Positions 6,508 to 15,436 of a DNA stretch of 64,000 nt are shown piece by piece. Location: NCBI GenBank assembly GCA_018242205.1, contig JAFECJ010000021.1, forward strand, positions 1 through 64,000, read 5' to 3'. The position numbers were made by a program, and so were the translations under genes. Numbering within the stretch: the stretch's first letter is position 1; the number at the start of each line of letters is the position of its first letter. The notes beneath the pieces were generated by a model. The model did not search any database and was not told the DNA's origin. It saw nothing but the letters and a program-made list of their open reading frames with translations. Origin of the DNA: Pseudomonadota bacterium. Its GTDB lineage: Bacteria > Pseudomonadota > Alphaproteobacteria > Rhizobiales > Xanthobacteraceae.

Positions 6508-7749
6508 TCAAAGCAAAGGTCGCGGCGCCCTGGGGGTGGCGGCGATGGCGTCGAGGCGGCCGATGACGTCCCGCAAGGTGCGGTCGGCGAGATCGCGCAA
6601 CGCCGGAGCAGCGGCTGCCTGCTTCGCGGCGTCATCGGTTGTGAAAGGGAGTGTCGGCATCTTGGCGTCGAAGCCGGTGGCGGCGCACATCGCTGCGCGC
6701 TCGACCGCGTCCGGGCTGACCCCGAAATGCGGCAGGACGCGCGTCTCGACGGCGTCCGGGAGGTCGCGGTAGTTGATCGCCAAACCCTGAGGCGAGGCGA
6801 GCGCGTCGACCGCGGCGTTGCAGATCGTGCCCAGGACGCGCGCGGTGTAGTCGAGATCAGGCTCGGTCGCGCTGGCGTCGAGGCCGTAAAGCGCGGGCGG
6901 CATTATTTGCCGCGCCATCTGCGGGCCCGGCTCGCGCGCCTGCGATACCAGCACCTCGACCGGATCGCGATAGAGAAAGACCCAAGGCACATCGGGAAAC
7001 ACGCGCGTGAATAGCGGCAGCGCCATCGCGTGCCAACTATCGAGTTTGATGAACAGGCGTTGCTCGCCACTACCGTGCCGTCGGCCATAGGCGATCGCAA
7101 AGGCGCGCAGGAGGTCTTCGTGAGACGATCGCGCGCGCGGCGGCGCCGCACGGCTCAATTTTACCGCCGCGTCGATCGGCGCGGCTTCCGAAATGACGAT
7201 GTTGTTCGAGCTTTGCGCCAGCATTTGCGACACCAGCGTCGAGCCGCAGCGCGACATGTGAAAGATCAGGCCCGTGGGCATCAGGCTTGTTCCGGCATGT
7301 CGCGGCGCGTCAGCGACGAAATCGGACAGCGCCATCCGGTACGGGATCAACTGGTTGAAGGGCCGGCTCAGCGCTTCGCGGACAGTGCCTTCAAAGAAAG
7401 GCTCTTTCGTGGGCCGCGCGCCGACAAAGCTCCAATCGACTGTCGGGCGACCGAAGAAGTTGACGTGGACCGGCAGCCAACCCGGCGGCGGCCACTGCGC
7501 TTTCATTTCGACACCGGCGGCAAAACGCGACAGGCCCAGGGGATCTCCGCGCAGGGCATCGCCGATTTGCCGAGCTGTGACGGCAAGGCCGCGCGCGCCA
7601 GCGTCTCGCGCAAGCCGGGCGGCAAAGACCCCCGGTTCAAGGATGTCCGCGAGTTGTGCAGCCCACGATGCGTCGCCCAGCACCAATTGCCTGAGCTGAG
7701 CGAGTCTTTCCTCGGCATCGTCGGACGGCAATTGGTTGAGATTTTTCAT
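6508..7749 (-). CDS. Sulfotransferase family protein
   Basis: 413-aa P-loop-like sulfotransferase that would use PAPS as donor. The 5'-phosphosulfate-binding motif is FHMSRCGSTLVSQML, with the 3'-phosphate motif FLYRDPVEVLVSQ further on. The ATG at 7749 (MKNLNQLPSDDAEERL) is chosen because the open frame upstream only runs antisense through the DUF6916 gene. The N-terminal 130 residues are not a recognised catalytic part. It is divergent from the DUF6916 gene and lies on the far side of the GNAT and tail-collar genes from the RiPP cluster, which has its own, unrelated-looking sulfotransferase at 13506. The acceptor is unknown. Confidence 0.85.
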   Translation of the reverse strand: MKNLNQLPSDDAEERLAQLRQLVLGDASWAAQLADILEPGVFAARLARDAGARGLAVTARQIGDALRGDPLGLSRFAAGVEMKAQWPPPGWLPVHVNFFGRPTVDWSFVGARPTKEPFFEGTVREALSRPFNQLIPYRMALSDFVADAPRHAGTSLMPTGLIFHMSRCGSTLVSQMLAQSSNNIVISEAAPIDAAVKLSRAAPPRARSSHEDLLRAFAIAYGRRHGSGEQRLFIKLDSWHAMALPLFTRVFPDVPWVFLYRDPVEVLVSQAREPGPQMARQIMPPALYGLDASATEPDLDYTARVLGTICNAAVDALASPQGLAINYRDLPDAVETRVLPHFGVSPDAVERAAMCAATGFDAKMPTLPFTTDDAAKQAAAAPALRDLADRTLRDVIGRLDAIAATPRAPRPLL

Positions 7750-7833: not shown

Positions 7834-8133
7834 ATGTCCCGGCCGTTGATTCTCGAAGATTTCGCCAGCCGCGTCGGCGATACGTTCGCCATCCGCGAGC
7901 AGGGGCTCGAAGCCTTTCCCTTGACGCTGACAGAAGCCAAGCCGTTGCGCGCGACCTGGCCAGGGGCCGCCGCACGGCCGCCGTTCTCCCTGATCTTCGT
8001 CGGCAGCAATCCATGCATTCTGCCGCAGCGTCTCTACAAGTTCGATCTCGACGGCATCGGCCTGGTCGACATCTTCCTGGTGCCGGTGGGCAAGGACACC
8101 AAGGGTGTCAGCTACCAGGCCGTCTTCAACTGA
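7834..8133 (+). CDS. DUF6916 family protein
   Basis: 99-aa soluble protein (MSRPLILEDFASRVGDTFAI... ending GVSYQAVFN) that I recognise as DUF6916, a small beta-rich family often found beside tail-collar/MdpB-type genes. GAGGAG precedes the ATG by about 9 nt. The last 22 nt overlap the convergent GNAT gene. The family has no established function. Its placement between a sulfotransferase and the collar genes suggests it belongs to that group. Confidence 0.8.
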   Translation: MSRPLILEDFASRVGDTFAIREQGLEAFPLTLTEAKPLRATWPGAAARPPFSLIFVGSNPCILPQRLYKFDLDGIGLVDIFLVPVGKDTKGVSYQAVFN

Positions 8134-8681
8134 GTCCTTCGCGGCGCCGCGCCACGCGGCAACCATTCCATTTCGATCTGCACCCCGGGTTCGCCGATCC
8201 CGGCGAAGCCGAGCCGGCGGTACAAACGCTGCGCCGGATTGTGGACGTCGACGAACAGCGCCACTCCCATCAAGCGCGCGCGAGCAACATCCTGCAACGC
8301 CTTTAGAAGCGCGGTGCCTAGGCCCCGTCCGCGGAATGTCGGCAGCAGTGCGATATCGATCAGATGTATGTGGGTGGCGCGGACATCGACATAAAGCCGG
8401 CCGATCGGCGCGCCGCGATACTCGATTACATCGAAAGCCGTGTTGGGGAAGAACTTGCGATAGTGATAACGCTGCGCGTCAAACTGCTGATCGACAAAGG
8501 CGGCCTTCTGTTCCGCCTTCCATGGCAGCAGCGCGAGTTCGCGCTCGCGCGTGGTAGCGTACAGCGCTCGCAGGAATGGTAGGTCGCCGTCGTCCTCGGG
8601 ACGCAAGCCGTATCCTTGCACCGCCAGACTATCGGGAATGGCGAAACGGTCCGGTGCTGTCTCCCGCGCGCTGTCGGCCAT
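8112..8681 (-). CDS. GNAT family N-acetyltransferase
   Basis: 189-aa acetyl-CoA-dependent acyltransferase. The acetyl-CoA-binding loop is IALLPTFRGRGLGTALLKAL (R/Q-x-x-G-x-G/A), followed by the usual NPAQRLYRRLGF segment. The ATG at 8681 overlaps the stop of the upstream collar gene (8681-8683); a GTG at 8684 is an alternative. It is the last gene of the collar operon, which suggests a modifying role for, or co-expression with, those proteins. The acceptor is unknown. Confidence 0.85.
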   Translation of the reverse strand: MADSARETAPDRFAIPDSLAVQGYGLRPEDDGDLPFLRALYATTRERELALLPWKAEQKAAFVDQQFDAQRYHYRKFFPNTAFDVIEYRGAPIGRLYVDVRATHIHLIDIALLPTFRGRGLGTALLKALQDVARARLMGVALFVDVHNPAQRLYRRLGFAGIGEPGVQIEMEWLPRGAAPRRTQLKTAW

Positions 8682-9214
8682 CACGGAGGTGTCGGATACA
8701 TGCCTTCCAGCGAGATGCAGAAATTGAGCGTCAGATAAGGCTGCATGTTCTCGTGCGGCAGCGTGCTGCCATAGGGCGAGATCGCGCGGTTCGAGAAGCC
8801 GACGTTGATGGTCGGATTGGTCTGGTACAACACGTCGCCCTTAATCTGCGACAAGTAGCTATCCGACATCGGATTGGCGGTTCGCTCCGAAGCGTTGCCG
8901 GGATCGGCGCCGTAAATTGGATGGTTGTGCTGCGGCAATTGGCTTGAGGTCAGCGTGACCGTGGTCGTTCCCATCGGTTCGCCAATGACCGTATTGAGGC
9001 CGGTATTGCTATTTCCCCAGTGCATCGGAATGCGGCCCTGCAAGTTCGGCAAATTGAAGGTCGTCGTACCGTTGCCGCCATAGGTCGTGCCGAGAATGGC
9101 GAACAGCGCGGTGTATTGCGAGATGGCCATGGTCTGGCCGTTGCACTGCGCCCAGCCATAGGGCGCGAAGTTAAATCCGAAGCAGCAGATTTCGCCGATG
9201 AACGGTTCGGACAT
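8681..9214 (-). CDS. Phage tail-collar domain protein (MdpB-like), third copy
   Basis: 177 aa. It opens MSEPFIGEICCFGFNFAPYG, then WAQCNGQTMAISQYTALFA and YGGNGTTTFNLPNLQGRIP, the tail-collar (MdpB, microcystin-dependent protein) fold seen at phage fibre bases but also in stand-alone bacterial proteins. The C-terminus has ENMQPYLTLNFCISLEG. A strong AAGGAGGG lies just upstream. It is one of three paralogs in tandem (also 9225 and 9811), with no baseplate, sheath or tube genes nearby, so a tailocin is not supported. Confidence 0.88.
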   Translation of the reverse strand: MSEPFIGEICCFGFNFAPYGWAQCNGQTMAISQYTALFAILGTTYGGNGTTTFNLPNLQGRIPMHWGNSNTGLNTVIGEPMGTTTVTLTSSQLPQHNHPIYGADPGNASERTANPMSDSYLSQIKGDVLYQTNPTINVGFSNRAISPYGSTLPHENMQPYLTLNFCISLEGMYPTPP

Positions 9215-9224
9215 TTCGCCCTCC

Positions 9225-9773
9225 TTAGCCGCGCGACGGAAACACGCCCTGCAGGGCGATGATGAAGGTGATGCACAAGGACGGCATCAGATTGGCGTGC
9301 GGCTGCGATTGTCCGGCCATGCCGCAGACGCCCGTCGCCAACGCTTTCGGCGACGGTGCCGGCTGACCCGTCACGGGATGGCAGTAGAACAGCGGCGAGC
9401 CTGACCCGGTCGCGGTGGCCGGGACGACGGTCGATCCGATCGTCGTTGCAGTCGCTGTCGCCGGCGCCGCATTGAGCATGTGCATGTGCTGCGGAATTTG
9501 CGATGTATTGAGCGTGACTTGCGGCGTGCCGCCCGGCTGGCCAATTACGTAGTTCGACAGGCCGGGCCCCTGGCCCTCGTGGATCGGGAGCCTCGATTGC
9601 AGGTCGGGCAAGGCGAAGGTCGAGACGCCGTTGCCGCCGTAGTAAGTGCCGATCAGGGAGAACAACGCCTGATTCTGGCTGATTGACATGATCTGCCCAT
9701 TGCACATCGCAAAGCCTTTCGGCGCGAAGTTACCGCCAAACATGTCGATCTGTCCGACAAAAGGTTGGCTCAT
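9225..9773 (-). CDS. Phage tail-collar domain protein (MdpB-like), second copy
   Basis: 182 aa. It starts MSQPFVGQIDMFGGNFAPKG and carries AMCNGQIMSISQNQALFSL and YYGGNGVSTFALPDLQSRLP. Its central region is an Ala/Thr-rich insert unlike the other two copies, and the C-terminus is HANLMPSLCITFIIALQG. GGAGG precedes the ATG. The conserved N- and C-terminal blocks with a variable middle suggest duplicated binding proteins that have diverged in specificity. Confidence 0.88.
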   Translation of the reverse strand: MSQPFVGQIDMFGGNFAPKGFAMCNGQIMSISQNQALFSLIGTYYGGNGVSTFALPDLQSRLPIHEGQGPGLSNYVIGQPGGTPQVTLNTSQIPQHMHMLNAAPATATATTIGSTVVPATATGSGSPLFYCHPVTGQPAPSPKALATGVCGMAGQSQPHANLMPSLCITFIIALQGVFPSRG

Positions 9774-9810
9774 ATGTATCCTCCCGGGTTGATGCCTGAG
9801 TGATGGAACG

Positions 9811-10344
9811 TCAGCCGCGCGGCGGGAAGATTCCGGACGTGCAGATGCACCAGTTGAGCGTCAGGTAGGGCTGGAGGTTGTTGTGTGTGAGACCGCCGCC
9901 TGTCATGCCGACGCTGAGGACGTTGATCGGCTGCGCCGTTGCGTCCGATCCGTAGAACATGTCCGGCGTGTTGCCGCCTCGATAGGCCGTCGCGAGCGCC
10001 ACACCCCCGATGATATCGTTGCTGTTCGCGTTGCCAGAGGAGCCCATGAAGGCGTGGTTGTGCTGCGGCGTGGTCGCCGAGGTCAGAAACACGTTCTCGA
10101 GGCCGGACATTTCGCCCTGGACGAAGACCTCGCCGTTGAGTGTGCCGACATGCATCGGCACGCGGCTCTGCAAACTCGGAAGTCCGAAAGTCGTGCTGCC
10201 ATTGCCGCCGTACATGGTGCCGAGCAGCGCGAACAACGCGGCGTTCTGCTGGATTGACATGATCTGGCCGTTGCACTGCGCCCAGAATCTCGGCGCGAAA
10301 TTGAATGCCATGGGCTGAATCTGACCGATGAAAGCTTGCGACAT
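9811..10344 (-). CDS. Phage tail-collar domain protein (MdpB-like), first copy
   Basis: 177 aa, first gene of the minus-strand collar operon. It starts MSQAFIGQIQPMAFNFAPRF, with WAQCNGQIMSIQQNAALFAL and MYGGNGSTTFGLPSLQSRVP. The C-terminal block is NNLQPYLTLNWCICTSGIFP. Its start faces the RiPP precursor across a 259-nt intergenic region (10345-10603), so the collar operon and the lasso-type cluster share a divergent promoter region. Confidence 0.88.
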   Translation of the reverse strand: MSQAFIGQIQPMAFNFAPRFWAQCNGQIMSIQQNAALFALLGTMYGGNGSTTFGLPSLQSRVPMHVGTLNGEVFVQGEMSGLENVFLTSATTPQHNHAFMGSSGNANSNDIIGGVALATAYRGGNTPDMFYGSDATAQPINVLSVGMTGGGLTHNNLQPYLTLNWCICTSGIFPPRG

Positions 10345-10445: not shown

Positions 10446-10603
10446 AAATTCAGCGCGGCGCCCCACTCGCCGTCGGACCCCGATAGCGACAAAAACGGGG
10501 TGTCGGAGGTCGCGGGCTCTTCCCCTTCAGGCGTCGTGCGGGCGCCACCGGTGGCTTGCCGCAAGCGTGTTCTCTGCTAAAATACCAGCAAAGGTAGGTG
10601 GTC

Positions 10604-10777
10604 ATGGCCGCGACTCCGGAAGGCCGCGCTCAGCAGGTGCTCGAAGAGGGCAAAGCCGCTCCGGCGCCAGACCGCAAGCCGTGGCAGACGCCGCGCTTCA
10701 TCGTGTCCGAAGTCGTCGATACGCAATTCGGCAGCAATCCTCCGACCAACGACAATCCTTATTCGCAACTGAGCTGA
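10604..10777 (+). CDS. RiPP (lasso-type) precursor peptide candidate
   Basis: 57-aa ORF starting at an ATG after AAGGTAGGTGG, 58 nt before the cyclase gene and co-directional with it. The leader holds KPWQTPRF (residues 25-32), matching the aromatic-x-x-Pro-x-hydrophobic part of the Y-x-x-P-x-L recognition motif read by PqqD-type leader-binding proteins. Gly43 could be core residue 1. Asp50 would then be ring position 8, giving a 15-residue core GSNPPTNDNPYSQLS with an 8-membered macrolactam. The C-terminal residue is Ser57, the acceptor type for lasso-associated HPr-like kinases. Odd points: the conserved Thr at -2 is absent (Gln41; Thr40 is at -3), and Gly43 is one residue nearer the motif than usual. 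The core boundary is inference. Confidence 0.7.
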   Translation: MAATPEGRAQQVLEEGKAAPAPDRKPWQTPRFIVSEVVDTQFGSNPPTNDNPYSQLS

Positions 10778-10835: not shown

Positions 10836-12782
10836 ATGGCCGCTTTTGCCGGCATCGTGACCTTCGATGACGCTCCTCTCGACAGCAGGATCGAGCAGGC
10901 GATCACGGCGGCGGCGTCCGGGCCCCGTCGGCAACGCGTGGCCTCGTTCAGGGCGGCGCATGGCATCGTGGCGCAACGGCTCGCCGCACCGGGCGGGCTC
11001 GACGGACCGCAAAATTGTCCGAAGGTCGGCCGCCCTTTGGAAGCGACGCAACTGTTCGCAGCCGATGTACGACTCGATAACCGCGACGAACTGATTGCCC
11101 TGCTGGGTGCGGCAAGGCCGCCGCAAGCGGACGACGCCGACCTGCTGCTGGCGACGATCGACCGTTTCTATGACGCCGGAATTGCGCGATGTCTCGGCGC
11201 TTTCGCCTTCGTGCGATGGCAACCGGACCGGCGCCGCCTTCTGCTCGGCCGCGATTGTCTGGGTCATCGCAGCCTGTTCTATCATTGCGGCGATGGTTTC
11301 GTGGCCTTCGCCTCGACGCTTGGCGGATTGCTGGCCTTGCCGCGTGTGCCCCGGCAACTCGATGAGATCGCCCTTGCCAATTTTCTTGCCGTCAATCTGA
11401 ATGCTCGCGAGCAGACCCTCTATCGCGGCATAGCGCGCGTGCCTTCGCGTTGCGTGGTCGAAATAGGAAAGCGTGGCAGGGTGCAGCGGCACTACTGGTC
11501 CCCTCGCATGGGGGGCGCCGACAACCGATCCGATACGGATTATGTCGAGGAGGCGCGTGCCCGGTTCGACGACGCGGTCCTGACCGTGAGCCGCGATTTG
11601 CCTCGTGTCGCCGTGTCATGCAGCGGCGGCTTCGACTCGAGCGCGATTGCCGCGACCTTGGCGCGGCTTGGCCACGCGCAATCGATCGACTGTTATACGG
11701 TGGTGCCACCGCCCGGCAGCAACATCGACGTCGGCGAACGCCGCTATTATGACGAGACAGACAAGGTCGAGGCGCTCGGCCGTCTTCACCCCGCGCTCAA
11801 TTTGAACCTGATGTCGCCGCCGGCGCCGCATCCCAATGAAAGCGATCCGACGCGCATTTTCGCTCGCTCGCACATGCCTTACCCCGGGCCGACGGTGCTC
11901 GGAGCTCATGGTGCTTTGTACGACGCCGTGGCGGCATCCCGCCATCCGGTCTTGCTCTCGGGCGACCTCGGCAATCTCTGTCTGTCATGGGACGGTCTCT
12001 TTTCCATACGCGCCTTGCTGCGCGAAGGTCGGTTCCGGGAACTGGTTCATGAATTATCGGCCATCGCGCGTCGTAACAGGCGTAGTCGTGCGCGAACGAT
12101 TTTCGCCGAGGCGCTTCTTCCCGGTTTGCCTTTGTGGCTCCGCCGCACCGTCCATCGGCTGCGCGGACGCGAACCCGATGCGATCGAGCGATACTCCGCG
12201 CTCAATCCTGCCTTCATTGCCGGCAACGACCTGCCTCGCCAATGGTACGAGCAGGCTTTCGAGGCATGGCCCATGCCGGAGGGATGGAACGCGGCGCGGT
12301 TTCGGGCGCGCGCGCTTTTTGACCTCAACCAGGTGGCGCGCGACCTGAAAGCTGCGAGCGTAGACGTCTTCGGCTACGAGAGACGTGATCCTTATGCCGA
12401 CCGTCGATTGATTGAATTCGCGCTCAATGTGCCGGAGCGGCTGTACCGGTGTGACGGCATCCCGCGCGCCTTTGCCCGCGCCGTCTTCGCCGATCGGTTG
12501 CCGCCGGAAATCCTGAACGAACAGCGGCGCGGAATATCCGCCGCGGCCTGGTTTCAACGCCTCGACGTTCGCCGGCGCGACATCGAGGATGAAATCGAGC
12601 GGCTCGAGACTTCGGCGACGGCCCGGCGCCTCATCGATATCAAACGCCTGAAAGAACTGGTCGCTGCCTGGCCCGCCGACGGCAACGAGGCGCAAAGCAA
12701 GCGCGGTCTCTATTTCGGCGCGTTGCAGCGCGCGCTGCATGTGGGCCACTTCATCCGCTGGGTCGAAAGCGCCAACGCGTGA
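10836..12782 (+). CDS. Asparagine synthetase-like lasso cyclase (class C protein)
   Basis: 648 aa with an N-terminal glutamine-amidotransferase-like domain (about 1-220) and a C-terminal ATP-pyrophosphatase domain. The P-loop is SCSGGFDSSAIAATL (about 261-275). It starts MAAFAGIV, so the catalytic Cys2 of true asparagine synthetases is missing. This is normal for lasso macrolactam synthetases, which adenylate an Asp/Glu side chain and do not need ammonia. It follows the precursor by 58 nt and converges with the minus-strand B2/PqqD/sulfotransferase/HPrK operon. Confidence 0.85.
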   Translation: MAAFAGIVTFDDAPLDSRIEQAITAAASGPRRQRVASFRAAHGIVAQRLAAPGGLDGPQNCPKVGRPLEATQLFAADVRLDNRDELIALLGAARPPQADDADLLLATIDRFYDAGIARCLGAFAFVRWQPDRRRLLLGRDCLGHRSLFYHCGDGFVAFASTLGGLLALPRVPRQLDEIALANFLAVNLNAREQTLYRGIARVPSRCVVEIGKRGRVQRHYWSPRMGGADNRSDTDYVEEARARFDDAVLTVSRDLPRVAVSCSGGFDSSAIAATLARLGHAQSIDCYTVVPPPGSNIDVGERRYYDETDKVEALGRLHPALNLNLMSPPAPHPNESDPTRIFARSHMPYPGPTVLGAHGALYDAVAASRHPVLLSGDLGNLCLSWDGLFSIRALLREGRFRELVHELSAIARRNRRSRARTIFAEALLPGLPLWLRRTVHRLRGREPDAIERYSALNPAFIAGNDLPRQWYEQAFEAWPMPEGWNAARFRARALFDLNQVARDLKAASVDVFGYERRDPYADRRLIEFALNVPERLYRCDGIPRAFARAVFADRLPPEILNEQRRGISAAAWFQRLDVRRRDIEDEIERLETSATARRLIDIKRLKELVAAWPADGNEAQSKRGLYFGALQRALHVGHFIRWVESANA

Positions 12783-12795
12783 GGATGTGTCTTGC

Positions 12796-13257
12796 TCAGG
12801 CGAAGCGTGCGAGCTCGGTGCAATCCGTCGCCAGAGGATAGCCGGTGACTTCGAAGCCGCCGGCGTCCAACCAGGCGTGCGCCTCGATGCCATTTGCAGC
12901 ACGGCCGGTGACGCCGAAATGCAGCACGTTGGCAATGCCGCGCCGCTGTAACATGTGCCTGGCCGCCAGCGCCTGGGGCAGGCAGGCGGCGTAGAACGGT
13001 AGATAACAGGCCGCTCGCGTCACCGCCCAGCGGATTTCGCAAACGATCGCCGCGTCACGGCTTGCTGCGGTGGTACGCGAAGATTGCGGCGGCGACAGCG
13101 TCCCGAGGCGCCGCGCCAGCCGCGGAAACGACACGAACATCAGACCGAGCCGTGCCACCACAAGGCGCAGCACGGCCTCGACGACCAGCGCGCGGCGTCG
13201 CCCGTCGACTTGCGCGAATCTACGCAGCGGGTGGCGGATCGAGCGCGACAGCGCCAT
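12796..13257 (-). CDS. Lasso peptide biosynthesis B2 protein (transglutaminase-like leader peptidase)
   Basis: 153 aa. The C-terminal half is the B2 cysteine-protease core: CLPQALAARHMLQRRGI provides the catalytic Cys, HFGVTG and AHAWLDAGG carry the catalytic His, and the Asp lies in the latter segment. The role is to cut the leader from the precursor while the B1 protein holds it. The gene overlaps the end of the pqqD-like B1 gene by 38 nt, so the two are co-translated. It ends 13 nt from the convergent cyclase stop. Confidence 0.88.
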   Translation of the reverse strand: MALSRSIRHPLRRFAQVDGRRRALVVEAVLRLVVARLGLMFVSFPRLARRLGTLSPPQSSRTTAASRDAAIVCEIRWAVTRAACYLPFYAACLPQALAARHMLQRRGIANVLHFGVTGRAANGIEAHAWLDAGGFEVTGYPLATDCTELARFA

Positions 13258-13505: not shown

Positions 13506-14402
13506 TTATCCTGCCTCTGAAAGGTGCGTGGCGCCCGCCAGCGGATAACCGAGCCGCTGCATCATGGCGCCGTGATCGTGTTCGATGCGCGCAACCTGCG
13601 CCGCCGTGAGTTCGTCGCGCCAGGCGCCGGCCTCGCCGCGGCGGAAGAACGCCTGACGATGCGGGGCTTCGCGGAAGCCGTTGCTATGCTCCTGCGCCGC
13701 CACGCGCTCGAAGGCCGACAGCGCGATCGCGCGGTGGATCGCGGCATCGGTGGCCGGCCAACCGGCGAAGTCGAGTGCGGCGCGCAACGTCGCCGCCGGC
13801 ATGCTTCGTAGATCCTCATAGCGCACCAGGTGCATCGGCAGGTCGCGCTGGTTCAGCCAACTGGCGACGTGCTCGCTCCAGCGGGTTAGCCTCTGGCGCA
13901 GTTGCAGATATCCGCGGTCGGTGTGGCCGCACAGGCAGGCGCCGGCATTGTTCATGAACGCGATGGTTCTGTCGATGCCGTAGCGGCTGTGATGCGCGAA
14001 TGACGAGGCGATGTCGCGCGGATCGCGCACGATGACGAGCACACCGTCGGCGCCGGCGCGGCCACCGAGAATGGGCGCGCCGTCCGGTCCATACTGGTAA
14101 GCATCGTGGGCTTTGACGAAGCGCACCGGGCCTTCGGCGAGCTCAGGGACGTCGTCGTCGCCGTCGCCGCTTTCAGCCAGAGCCGCGTTCGCTCCGGGTC
14201 GCAGCGCATCGATCTCCTCGTGGGTGAGCAGGCCGGAATCGATCAGCGTCATGCGGTCGAAGGGAGCTCGTGCGCTGGCGAAGCCACCTGACAGCCTGTT
14301 GATGTCGGCACCGTCATCGCCGGCGACGGCGAGGTTGGCGAGCAGAATGCGCATCCAGGTGTTGCCCGACTTCGGATAGGAGGCGAGCCAGAAGGTGCGC
14401 AT
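13506..14402 (-). CDS. Sulfotransferase of the RiPP cluster
   Basis: 298 aa. It begins MRTFWLASYPKSGNTWMRIL, whose YPKSGNTW is the PAPS 5'-phosphosulfate-binding loop, and carries VLVIVRDPRDIASSFAHH as the 3'-phosphate motif. The ATG at 14402 overlaps the HPrK stop by one base (TGATG), which decides the start against an upstream frame reaching 14804. The gene sits inside the lasso-type operon, so a likely acceptor is the peptide product (core Tyr53, Ser54 or Ser57 of the precursor). That is inference, and a small-molecule acceptor is possible. Confidence 0.85.
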   Translation of the reverse strand: MRTFWLASYPKSGNTWMRILLANLAVAGDDGADINRLSGGFASARAPFDRMTLIDSGLLTHEEIDALRPGANAALAESGDGDDDVPELAEGPVRFVKAHDAYQYGPDGAPILGGRAGADGVLVIVRDPRDIASSFAHHSRYGIDRTIAFMNNAGACLCGHTDRGYLQLRQRLTRWSEHVASWLNQRDLPMHLVRYEDLRSMPAATLRAALDFAGWPATDAAIHRAIALSAFERVAAQEHSNGFREAPHRQAFFRRGEAGAWRDELTAAQVARIEHDHGAMMQRLGYPLAGATHLSEAG

Positions 14403-15334
14403 CACGCCGCTCTTCGGCACAGGCCGATATCGCGCCAATGCTGTTCGAGCTGTGCCAGCACAATCGGCAAGGCCTTGAAATTCAGGCTGCGCGTGAGATG
14501 AAAGATACCGGCGCCGTTGGCGATGGCGGTCGCGGCGTGGAAATAGGCGGCGTCCTGACCCATGCGGTTGATCAGCCGCGGCCGGTAGGCGTGCCGTCGC
14601 AAGGTCAGCGCCGCATCGACCACGTTGGGTGCGGTGATGCCGGGATGATGCGGCGGCCGCGCTTCGCGCAGCGCATAGATCGCGCCGAGCGGTAACGCCT
14701 GTTCGCGAACGCCGTCGGGTTCGACGTAGTATTTTTCCAGCCGCGCCCGCATACGTCCGCCACGCCGGCTGCCAAGCGCAAGTTCGTCGATCGTCTGCGA
14801 CCACAGCCGCAACCGGCGGCCATCGGGATGCACTGTCGCCGCGCCGTCGCTGCCGAGTGAAAGAGCGCAGAGGTCGTCGGTCACCAATGGCAGGCCGCGC
14901 TGAGCCAGCGCGGCGGCCAGCGTCGATTTACCGGCGCCCGATGTGCCACAGAACAGGATTGCCTTGCCGCCGACCTCCACCGCGCTGGCGTGCAACACAA
15001 TCTGTCCGCGCTGATGCAGGAGGATGCCGAAGACGGTGCCGAGAATGAAAATCGGAACATCGTCTGGATCGGCGCCGGCAGCGGCTTCGAAAGCGATGCT
15101 CCGGCCGTCGTAAAGGTAGAAGCGAGCGACACCGGGGACATGAATCAGGAAGTGCCGGGCCGCCATCTGCCAGGTTGGGCCCCGCGCGGTGGGGTTGGTT
15201 AGGGCGTCGGGGACGGGCGCGCGCCGGATCGATACATCCGCCTGCTGCGGGCCCCCAGACGCCGGGCTGGCACCCGGCAGGACCACTTCACTCGCCACGG
15301 TGAGTCCGGAAAGCGCGTATGAATACAAGCCCAT
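14402..15334 (-). CDS. HPr kinase/phosphorylase C-terminal-like protein of the RiPP cluster
   Basis: About 310 aa with an HprK-type kinase fold. The P-loop is FCGTSGAGKSTLAAALAQRG (about 129-148), followed by LVTDDLCAL with the acidic pair. Homologs in lasso clusters (paeninodin type) phosphorylate the C-terminal serine of the precursor, and the precursor here ends in Ser. The start is uncertain: ATG 15334 (MGLYSYALSGLTVASE) matches the usual family opening, with ATG 15364 and TTG 15397 as alternatives. It is the first gene of the minus-strand operon. Confidence 0.83.
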   Translation of the reverse strand: MGLYSYALSGLTVASEVVLPGASPASGGPQQADVSIRRAPVPDALTNPTARGPTWQMAARHFLIHVPGVARFYLYDGRSIAFEAAAGADPDDVPIFILGTVFGILLHQRGQIVLHASAVEVGGKAILFCGTSGAGKSTLAAALAQRGLPLVTDDLCALSLGSDGAATVHPDGRRLRLWSQTIDELALGSRRGGRMRARLEKYYVEPDGVREQALPLGAIYALREARPPHHPGITAPNVVDAALTLRRHAYRPRLINRMGQDAAYFHAATAIANGAGIFHLTRSLNFKALPIVLAQLEQHWRDIGLCRRAA

Positions 15335-15436
15335 GCTCCGCAGGTCGGACGCGGCACGTCCCATGCGAGCATCTATGATAGAGCACAACCGCGTCAACCG
15401 GAAGATGATTTGGTCGCCCGAAACGCGCGAAAACGG

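Follow-up and report, generated by a model that had tools for sequence, protein, structure and literature searches.

Within the window, the whole stretch of 64,000 nucleotides that was analysed, a short open reading frame on the forward strand is adjoined by genes for a cyclase, a leader peptidase, a leader-binding protein, a sulfotransferase and a kinase. The features of this cluster, with the evidence for each assignment, are as follows.

6508..7749 (-), second sulfotransferase-like protein, beyond the collar genes described below; PF13469, 3.7e-07
10590..10594 (+), Shine-Dalgarno-like AAAGG, 9 bases 5' of the ATG; the upstream sequence is the same in the nearest homologue
10604..10777 (+), predicted lasso precursor gene A, 57 amino acids plus stop; translation, homologues, codon pattern
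10836..12782 (+), lasso cyclase C (asparagine synthase-like); PF00733, 7.9e-21; NF033535, 3.1e-52, 178 bits, below the cut-off of 525
12796..13257 (-), leader peptidase B2; NF033537, 84 bits, above the cut-off of 33; PF13471
13220..13498 (-), B1, a PqqD-like leader-binding protein; PF05402, 1.4e-18; NF033536, 64.9 bits, below the cut-off of 80
13506..14402 (-), sulfotransferase with YPKSGNTW and RDPRD, which we take to be PAPS-type motifs; PF00685, 5.8e-22
14402..15397 (-), HPrK-like kinase with the P-loop GTSGAGKST; TIGR04352, 6.1e-13, 48.5 bits (cut-off 200); PF07475, 31.7 bits (cut-off 33.3)

The translation of 10604-10777 contains K25-P26-W27-Q28-T29-P30-R31-F32, then T40, Q41, F42, G43 and D50, and it ends in S57; the residues named for this ORF in the original prediction all match it. 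The nearest homologue of the precursor, from genome G070 (on the same contig as locus L007), is 68% identical (E 2e-19), and a scan of genome contigs with the cyclase gave one locus, that of this homologue. An alternative GTG start lies two codons 5' of the ATG in both genes. From Thr40 to the end, 9 codons are identical between the two, 7 differ synonymously and 2 change the amino acid (Gly43 to Ser and Leu56 to Ile, both in the core), whereas the first 24 codons hold 14 amino-acid changes; because the changes are mostly synonymous in the one part and amino-acid-changing in the other, the recognition motif and core are under purifying selection. The ORF is short and profile searches gave it neither a Pfam nor an NCBIfam match, as might be expected if it were spurious or decayed, but the prevalence of synonymous changes in the core (7 against 2) and the presence of homologous precursors next to related cyclases across many genera, and in other families, make this extremely improbable. 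A plasmid collection searched with the precursor gave no match.

The identification of the ORF as a lasso precursor, made originally from the sequence alone, is borne out by its neighbours, since genes for the cyclase, B2, the B1/PqqD protein, the HPrK-like kinase and the sulfotransferase adjoin it. Precursor, leader peptidase and asparagine synthase-like cyclase, which together make up a lasso cluster, are all present, with the cyclase and B1 scoring below their NCBIfam cut-offs. The HPrK-like kinase and terminal Ser of the paeninodin type are present as well, the kinase matching its Pfam and NCBIfam models below cut-off and carrying the P-loop. No PF00664-type ABC_membrane exporter was found on the precursor's contig, the six matches in the genome all lying on other contigs. 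The second sulfotransferase-like gene (6508-7749) recurs in related loci.

Homologous loci were collected at two levels. The cyclase was searched against 391 genomes of the family, 35 of which matched at E 1e-40 or better; the family set consists of the surroundings of the cyclase matches listed and one locus found via the precursor. From these, 32 homologous precursors were picked by eye, excluding the studied precursor and its nearest homologue; several loci yielded no precursor candidate, and the W..P ORFs of L074, L075, L076 and L078, whose last residues are D, K, K and V at loci where no kinase was hit, were left out. L074, L075 and L076 have B1, B2 and cyclase with no kinase hit, and a W..P ORF of a different type, ending in a GFSFE-like conserved stretch and not in Ser. 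A class-wide search of 385 genomes gave 35 other matches; 26 regions, covering 28 of these, form the class set. It yielded 19 precursors, selected for an acidic residue between W+18 and W+25 and for Ser or Thr as the last residue, with no filter on the -2 residue; three ORFs that did not resemble precursors (the Tyr-type ORFs of L101 and L123 and the second ORF of L117) were dropped. The precursors of L128 and L122 were found later and are not among the 51.

The positions within the precursor gene to which the argument refers are listed below.

10682..10699 (+), leader recognition motif W27-x2-P30-x-F32, putative B1 binding site, as assigned here; W..P conserved in homologues
10721..10723 (+), Thr40, predicted leader position -2; W+13, family rule
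10727..10774 (+), predicted core F42-S57, 16 amino acids, with ring F42-D50 and tail N51-S57; family rule, conserved codons
10751..10753 (+), Asp50, predicted isopeptide acceptor at ring position 9; translation, family rule
10772..10774 (+), terminal Ser57, predicted phosphorylation site; terminal Ser in homologues, kinase adjacent

If the core is taken to begin at Phe42, Thr40 falls at -2, Asp50 falls at ring position 9, which is a normal ring size, and the distance from W27 to T40 is 13 residues, the commonest spacing in the family. The boundary rule used takes T, A or S at W+13, or T at W+14, as position -2 and asks for D or E at core position 8 or 9. It fits 47 of the 51 precursors (28/32 from the family and all 19 of those from other families of the class), and four of the 32 family precursors break it. 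In the class set the -2 residue is T in 13, A in five and S in one (n=19); nine residues N-terminal of the acceptor, T is found in 20 and A in 18 of 50 precursors. The first core residue that the rule predicts among the homologues is N, A, T, L, V, D, E, S, I or G, and the later-found L128 precursor, from a second genome, reads A(-2), E(-1), F1, D8 and is by the same rule a second Phe1 case. L110 and L106, from different genomes, have near-identical cores with Thr in one and Ala in the other at -2, which suggests that the two residues are interchangeable there.

When the boundary was fitted without supervision to 32 homologues, solutions one register apart scored almost equally (283.7, 282.6 and 282.4), the best lying one residue upstream for most homologues; for the studied peptide the fit nevertheless preferred Phe42 (-0.76) to Gly43 (-7.84). 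The fit did not fix the register by itself; the register therefore rests on the Thr/Ala column and on the published mass of paeninodin, considered below. The precursor has Thr at -2 (Thr40, W+13, core from Phe42), in an absolute register that we infer, and an acidic residue within core positions 7-9, with Asp50 at 9, or at 8 if the core began at Gly43. Neither boundary places Ile or Val at -2, that position being Thr40 in the one and Gln41 in the other.

The original prediction had B2 cutting between Phe42 and Gly43, with Gln41 at -2, Thr40 at -3 and an eight-residue ring from Gly43 to Asp50, and had accordingly described the leader as a variant that lacks Thr at -2 and is cut at a shifted site. 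Gly is the commonest first residue among known lasso cores and the Gly43-Asp50 ring is a legal one; the odd cut site was proposed probably because the peptide was assumed to start with Gly. A Gly1 with D or E at 8 or 9 is, however, possible in only 11 of the 51 precursors, and the exact pattern proposed in two, both of which also satisfy the Thr(-2) rule. The nearest homologue retains T-Q-F; of the two residues on which the proposed ring was built it keeps Asp50 and has Ser for Gly43, and a homologue without Gly43 was one of the outcomes that the original prediction had itself named as refuting it. Asp50 as acceptor is supported, 47/51 precursors having D or E at core 8 or 9. A missing Thr(-2) is not supported, since Thr40 stands at the usual W+13 spacing, two positions ahead of a legal core F42...D50. 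Paeninodin sets the same trap. From a core sequence which we take to begin with Ala, [M+2H]2+ is calculated as 1209.504 for Ala1 and 1173.985 for Gly1. The published value for the core cut by B1/B2, 1209.50 (PMC5067487), fits Ala1 and excludes Gly1.

Published precursors bear on both readings. In PMC7533575 a B. cereus precursor is split before Gly, which places Thr at -3, as has been proposed for ruminal precursors too; counted from its Trp, the same precursor has Thr at W+13, Ala1 and Asp9, the layout of the one studied here. Many Lachnospiraceae precursors in Table 3 of that paper, which are predictions, read T(-3), Gly1, D9 and would have a ring of ten if Thr were at -2; T(-3) is thus not dismissible in general, and the Ile(-2) described in PMC10368454 means that Thr(-2) is not universal. 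Metanodin is described as starting with Asn1, demonstrated experimentally and recognised from a Thr two residues upstream (PMC12670498). A search of the literature found no lasso peptide paper naming Phe1. Taking these points together, a start at Gly43 is improbable and a shifted cut site in this precursor unlikely; the ORF most likely encodes a kinase-type lasso precursor that has the usual Thr(-2) and whose ring is predicted to run from Phe1 to Asp9.

The Trp-based recognition motif proposed originally is supported by the conservation of W..P in homologues, and B1 has a described role in leader binding (PMC10368454, PMC5067487). The suggestion that the terminal Ser suits the HPrK-like kinase also holds up: kinases of this kind are reported to phosphorylate a terminal Ser (PMC9266682, PMC8498205), the kinase gene adjoins, and the terminal residue is Ser in 53/53 precursors counted, a figure that is partly a product of selection. 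Ser44 (core Ser3) was considered as the site, as in BsfA, and set aside; Ser57 is favoured because the terminal Ser is near-universal, Ser44 being the less likely candidate. Of the family loci flanked by 4.5 kb or more on each side, 29 carry the kinase, and at 22 of these a sulfotransferase accompanies it; the literature mentions sulfotransferase genes in some lasso clusters, their role given as unknown (PMC8498205, PMC4289311). Tyr53 was set aside as a sulfation target, some sulfotransferase-linked cores (e.g. L062 and L111) having no Tyr.

Taken as a whole, the locus is best explained, with good confidence, as encoding a kinase-type lasso precursor that is cut between Gln41 and Phe42 and closed into a ring from Phe42 to Asp50. 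B1 would bind the leader through W27-x2-P30-x-F32, and the HPrK-like kinase would phosphorylate Ser57 on the precursor. B2 would cut, reading Thr40 at -2, and the cyclase would join the amino group of Phe42 to the side chain of Asp50, giving a nine-residue ring and a seven-residue tail, NPYSQLS. A further group may come from the sulfotransferase encoded alongside. What is read directly here is the gene, its neighbours and the T-x-core-D/E pattern, and sequence cannot reveal threading; the same enzymes could be imagined to make an unthreaded RiPP, for example a branched cyclic one, or a product set mainly by the kinase and sulfotransferase. The scores of the cyclase, B1 and kinase under their curated cut-offs, and the unknown function of sulfotransferases in such clusters (PMC8498205, PMC4289311), leave some room for this, but B2 is above its cut-off, lasso models are the best matches of cyclase and B1, and the acidic acceptor recurs at core 8 or 9 in 47/51; such a product is very unlikely.

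Among known systems the paeninodin type of the Firmicutes is close in its split B1/B2, cyclase, HPrK-like kinase and terminal Ser (PMC9266682), in the sulfotransferase genes noted in such clusters (PMC8498205) and, for the related B. cereus precursor, in W-x2-P, Thr at W+13 and Asp9. It differs in having Ala1 where Phe1 is predicted here, in carrying transport genes (PMC8498205), whereas the studied contig has no PF00664-type ABC exporter, and in that a trio of collar genes adjoins the studied cluster. Metanodin shares the non-canonical first core residue and the Thr two residues upstream (PMC12670498), its Asn1 standing against the predicted Phe1. The syanodin system of Sphingobium likewise has a proteobacterial HPrK-like kinase, whose reported substrate is the precursor's terminal Ser (PMC8498205, PMC10368454, PMC9266682), a likeness of kinase and last residue. 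The Bradymonas bsf cluster has the same kinase, cyclase, B1 and B2 functions and a leader motif that contains Pro, but it is described with Ile(-2), Tyr(-17) and a phosphorylated core Ser3 (PMC10368454), in contrast to the Thr(-2), Trp(-15) and favoured Ser57 of the studied precursor, which also has a Ser at core position 3 (Ser44).

On the other side of the precursor, beside the lasso cluster, lies a module of tail-collar genes with two companions.

7834..8133 (+), DUF6916 protein, often with the collar trio; PF21880, 6.6e-26, and linkage
8112..8684 (-), GNAT acetyltransferase, which travels with the collar trio; PHROG acetyltransferase, and linkage
8681..9214 (-), tail-collar protein 1; PF07484, 5.1e-28
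9225..9773 (-), tail-collar protein 2; alignment and PHROG tail families
9811..10344 (-), tail-collar protein 3; PF07484, 2.3e-24

A tandem collar trio (here 8681-10344, reverse strand) recurs beside the lasso cluster in several genera of the family and, elsewhere in the class, in six further families. Flanks of 4.5 kb or more on each side are available for 36 family cyclase loci; at least three collar genes are found at 17 of the 22 with kinase and sulfotransferase and at 2 of the 14 others (Fisher p 0.0004, relatedness ignored). In the class set of 26 regions the trio is present at 7/14 kinase and sulfotransferase loci against 0/12 (p 0.006), and it is these seven that represent the six further families.

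Collar trios with no linked cyclase (L080-L099 and L126-L145) lie mostly beside a giant repeat ORF. It is surface-protein-like and present at 17 of 20 loci in a first such set, taken from the best collar matches, and at 15 of 20 in a second, the class being defined by length and composition and the loci not being phylogenetically independent; two giant ORFs that were checked contain Cadherin or TIG domains. The exceptions in the second set are L127 and L130, which end at contig ends, L133 and L142, which have no giant ORF, and L128, which has the kinase, B1 and sulfotransferase. Among the 33 lasso-linked collar loci a giant ORF occurs only at L070, where the ORF is itself a collar match. The distribution looks as if the giant repeat protein and the lasso cluster were alternative partners of the collar genes.

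In genome G227, L128:7317-12136 has collar genes beside B1, kinase, sulfotransferase and the Phe1-type precursor, with no cyclase hit; a cyclase with another precursor (L059) lies about 70 kb away.

The AlphaFold model of one collar protein has a mean pLDDT of 39.6 and was not usable. That for the DUF6916 protein is all-beta and confident (89.8), and it found no match in the PDB at E 0.001 or better. In the literature searched, no paper names a lasso peptide together with a tail collar, and a text search of a 2026 review (PMC13352647) did not return the term phage tail. It is conceivable, though doubtful, that the collar trio, GNAT and DUF6916 proteins form a cell-surface unit, or one linked to export, that partners either a giant repeat protein of the surface or a lasso peptide modified by phosphorylation and perhaps sulfation, the latter being delivered, displayed or sensed by way of the collar assembly.

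The studied peptide adds a new member to the kinase-type lasso peptides, its product being a prediction. For genome mining, it illustrates that fixing Gly as core residue 1 shifts the cut site and yields false leader variants; the family suggests both that starts with Asn, Ala, Thr, Val, Leu, Ile and even Phe are common and that cores are better anchored on the small residue at -2. The collar linkage is more unusual than the precursor, and the alternation of lasso cluster and giant protein beside the collar genes is the part worth pursuing. What phosphorylation and the other modifications do for these peptides is described as not yet settled (PMC9266682); the collar linkage, if functional, would give kinase-type lasso peptides a physiological context.
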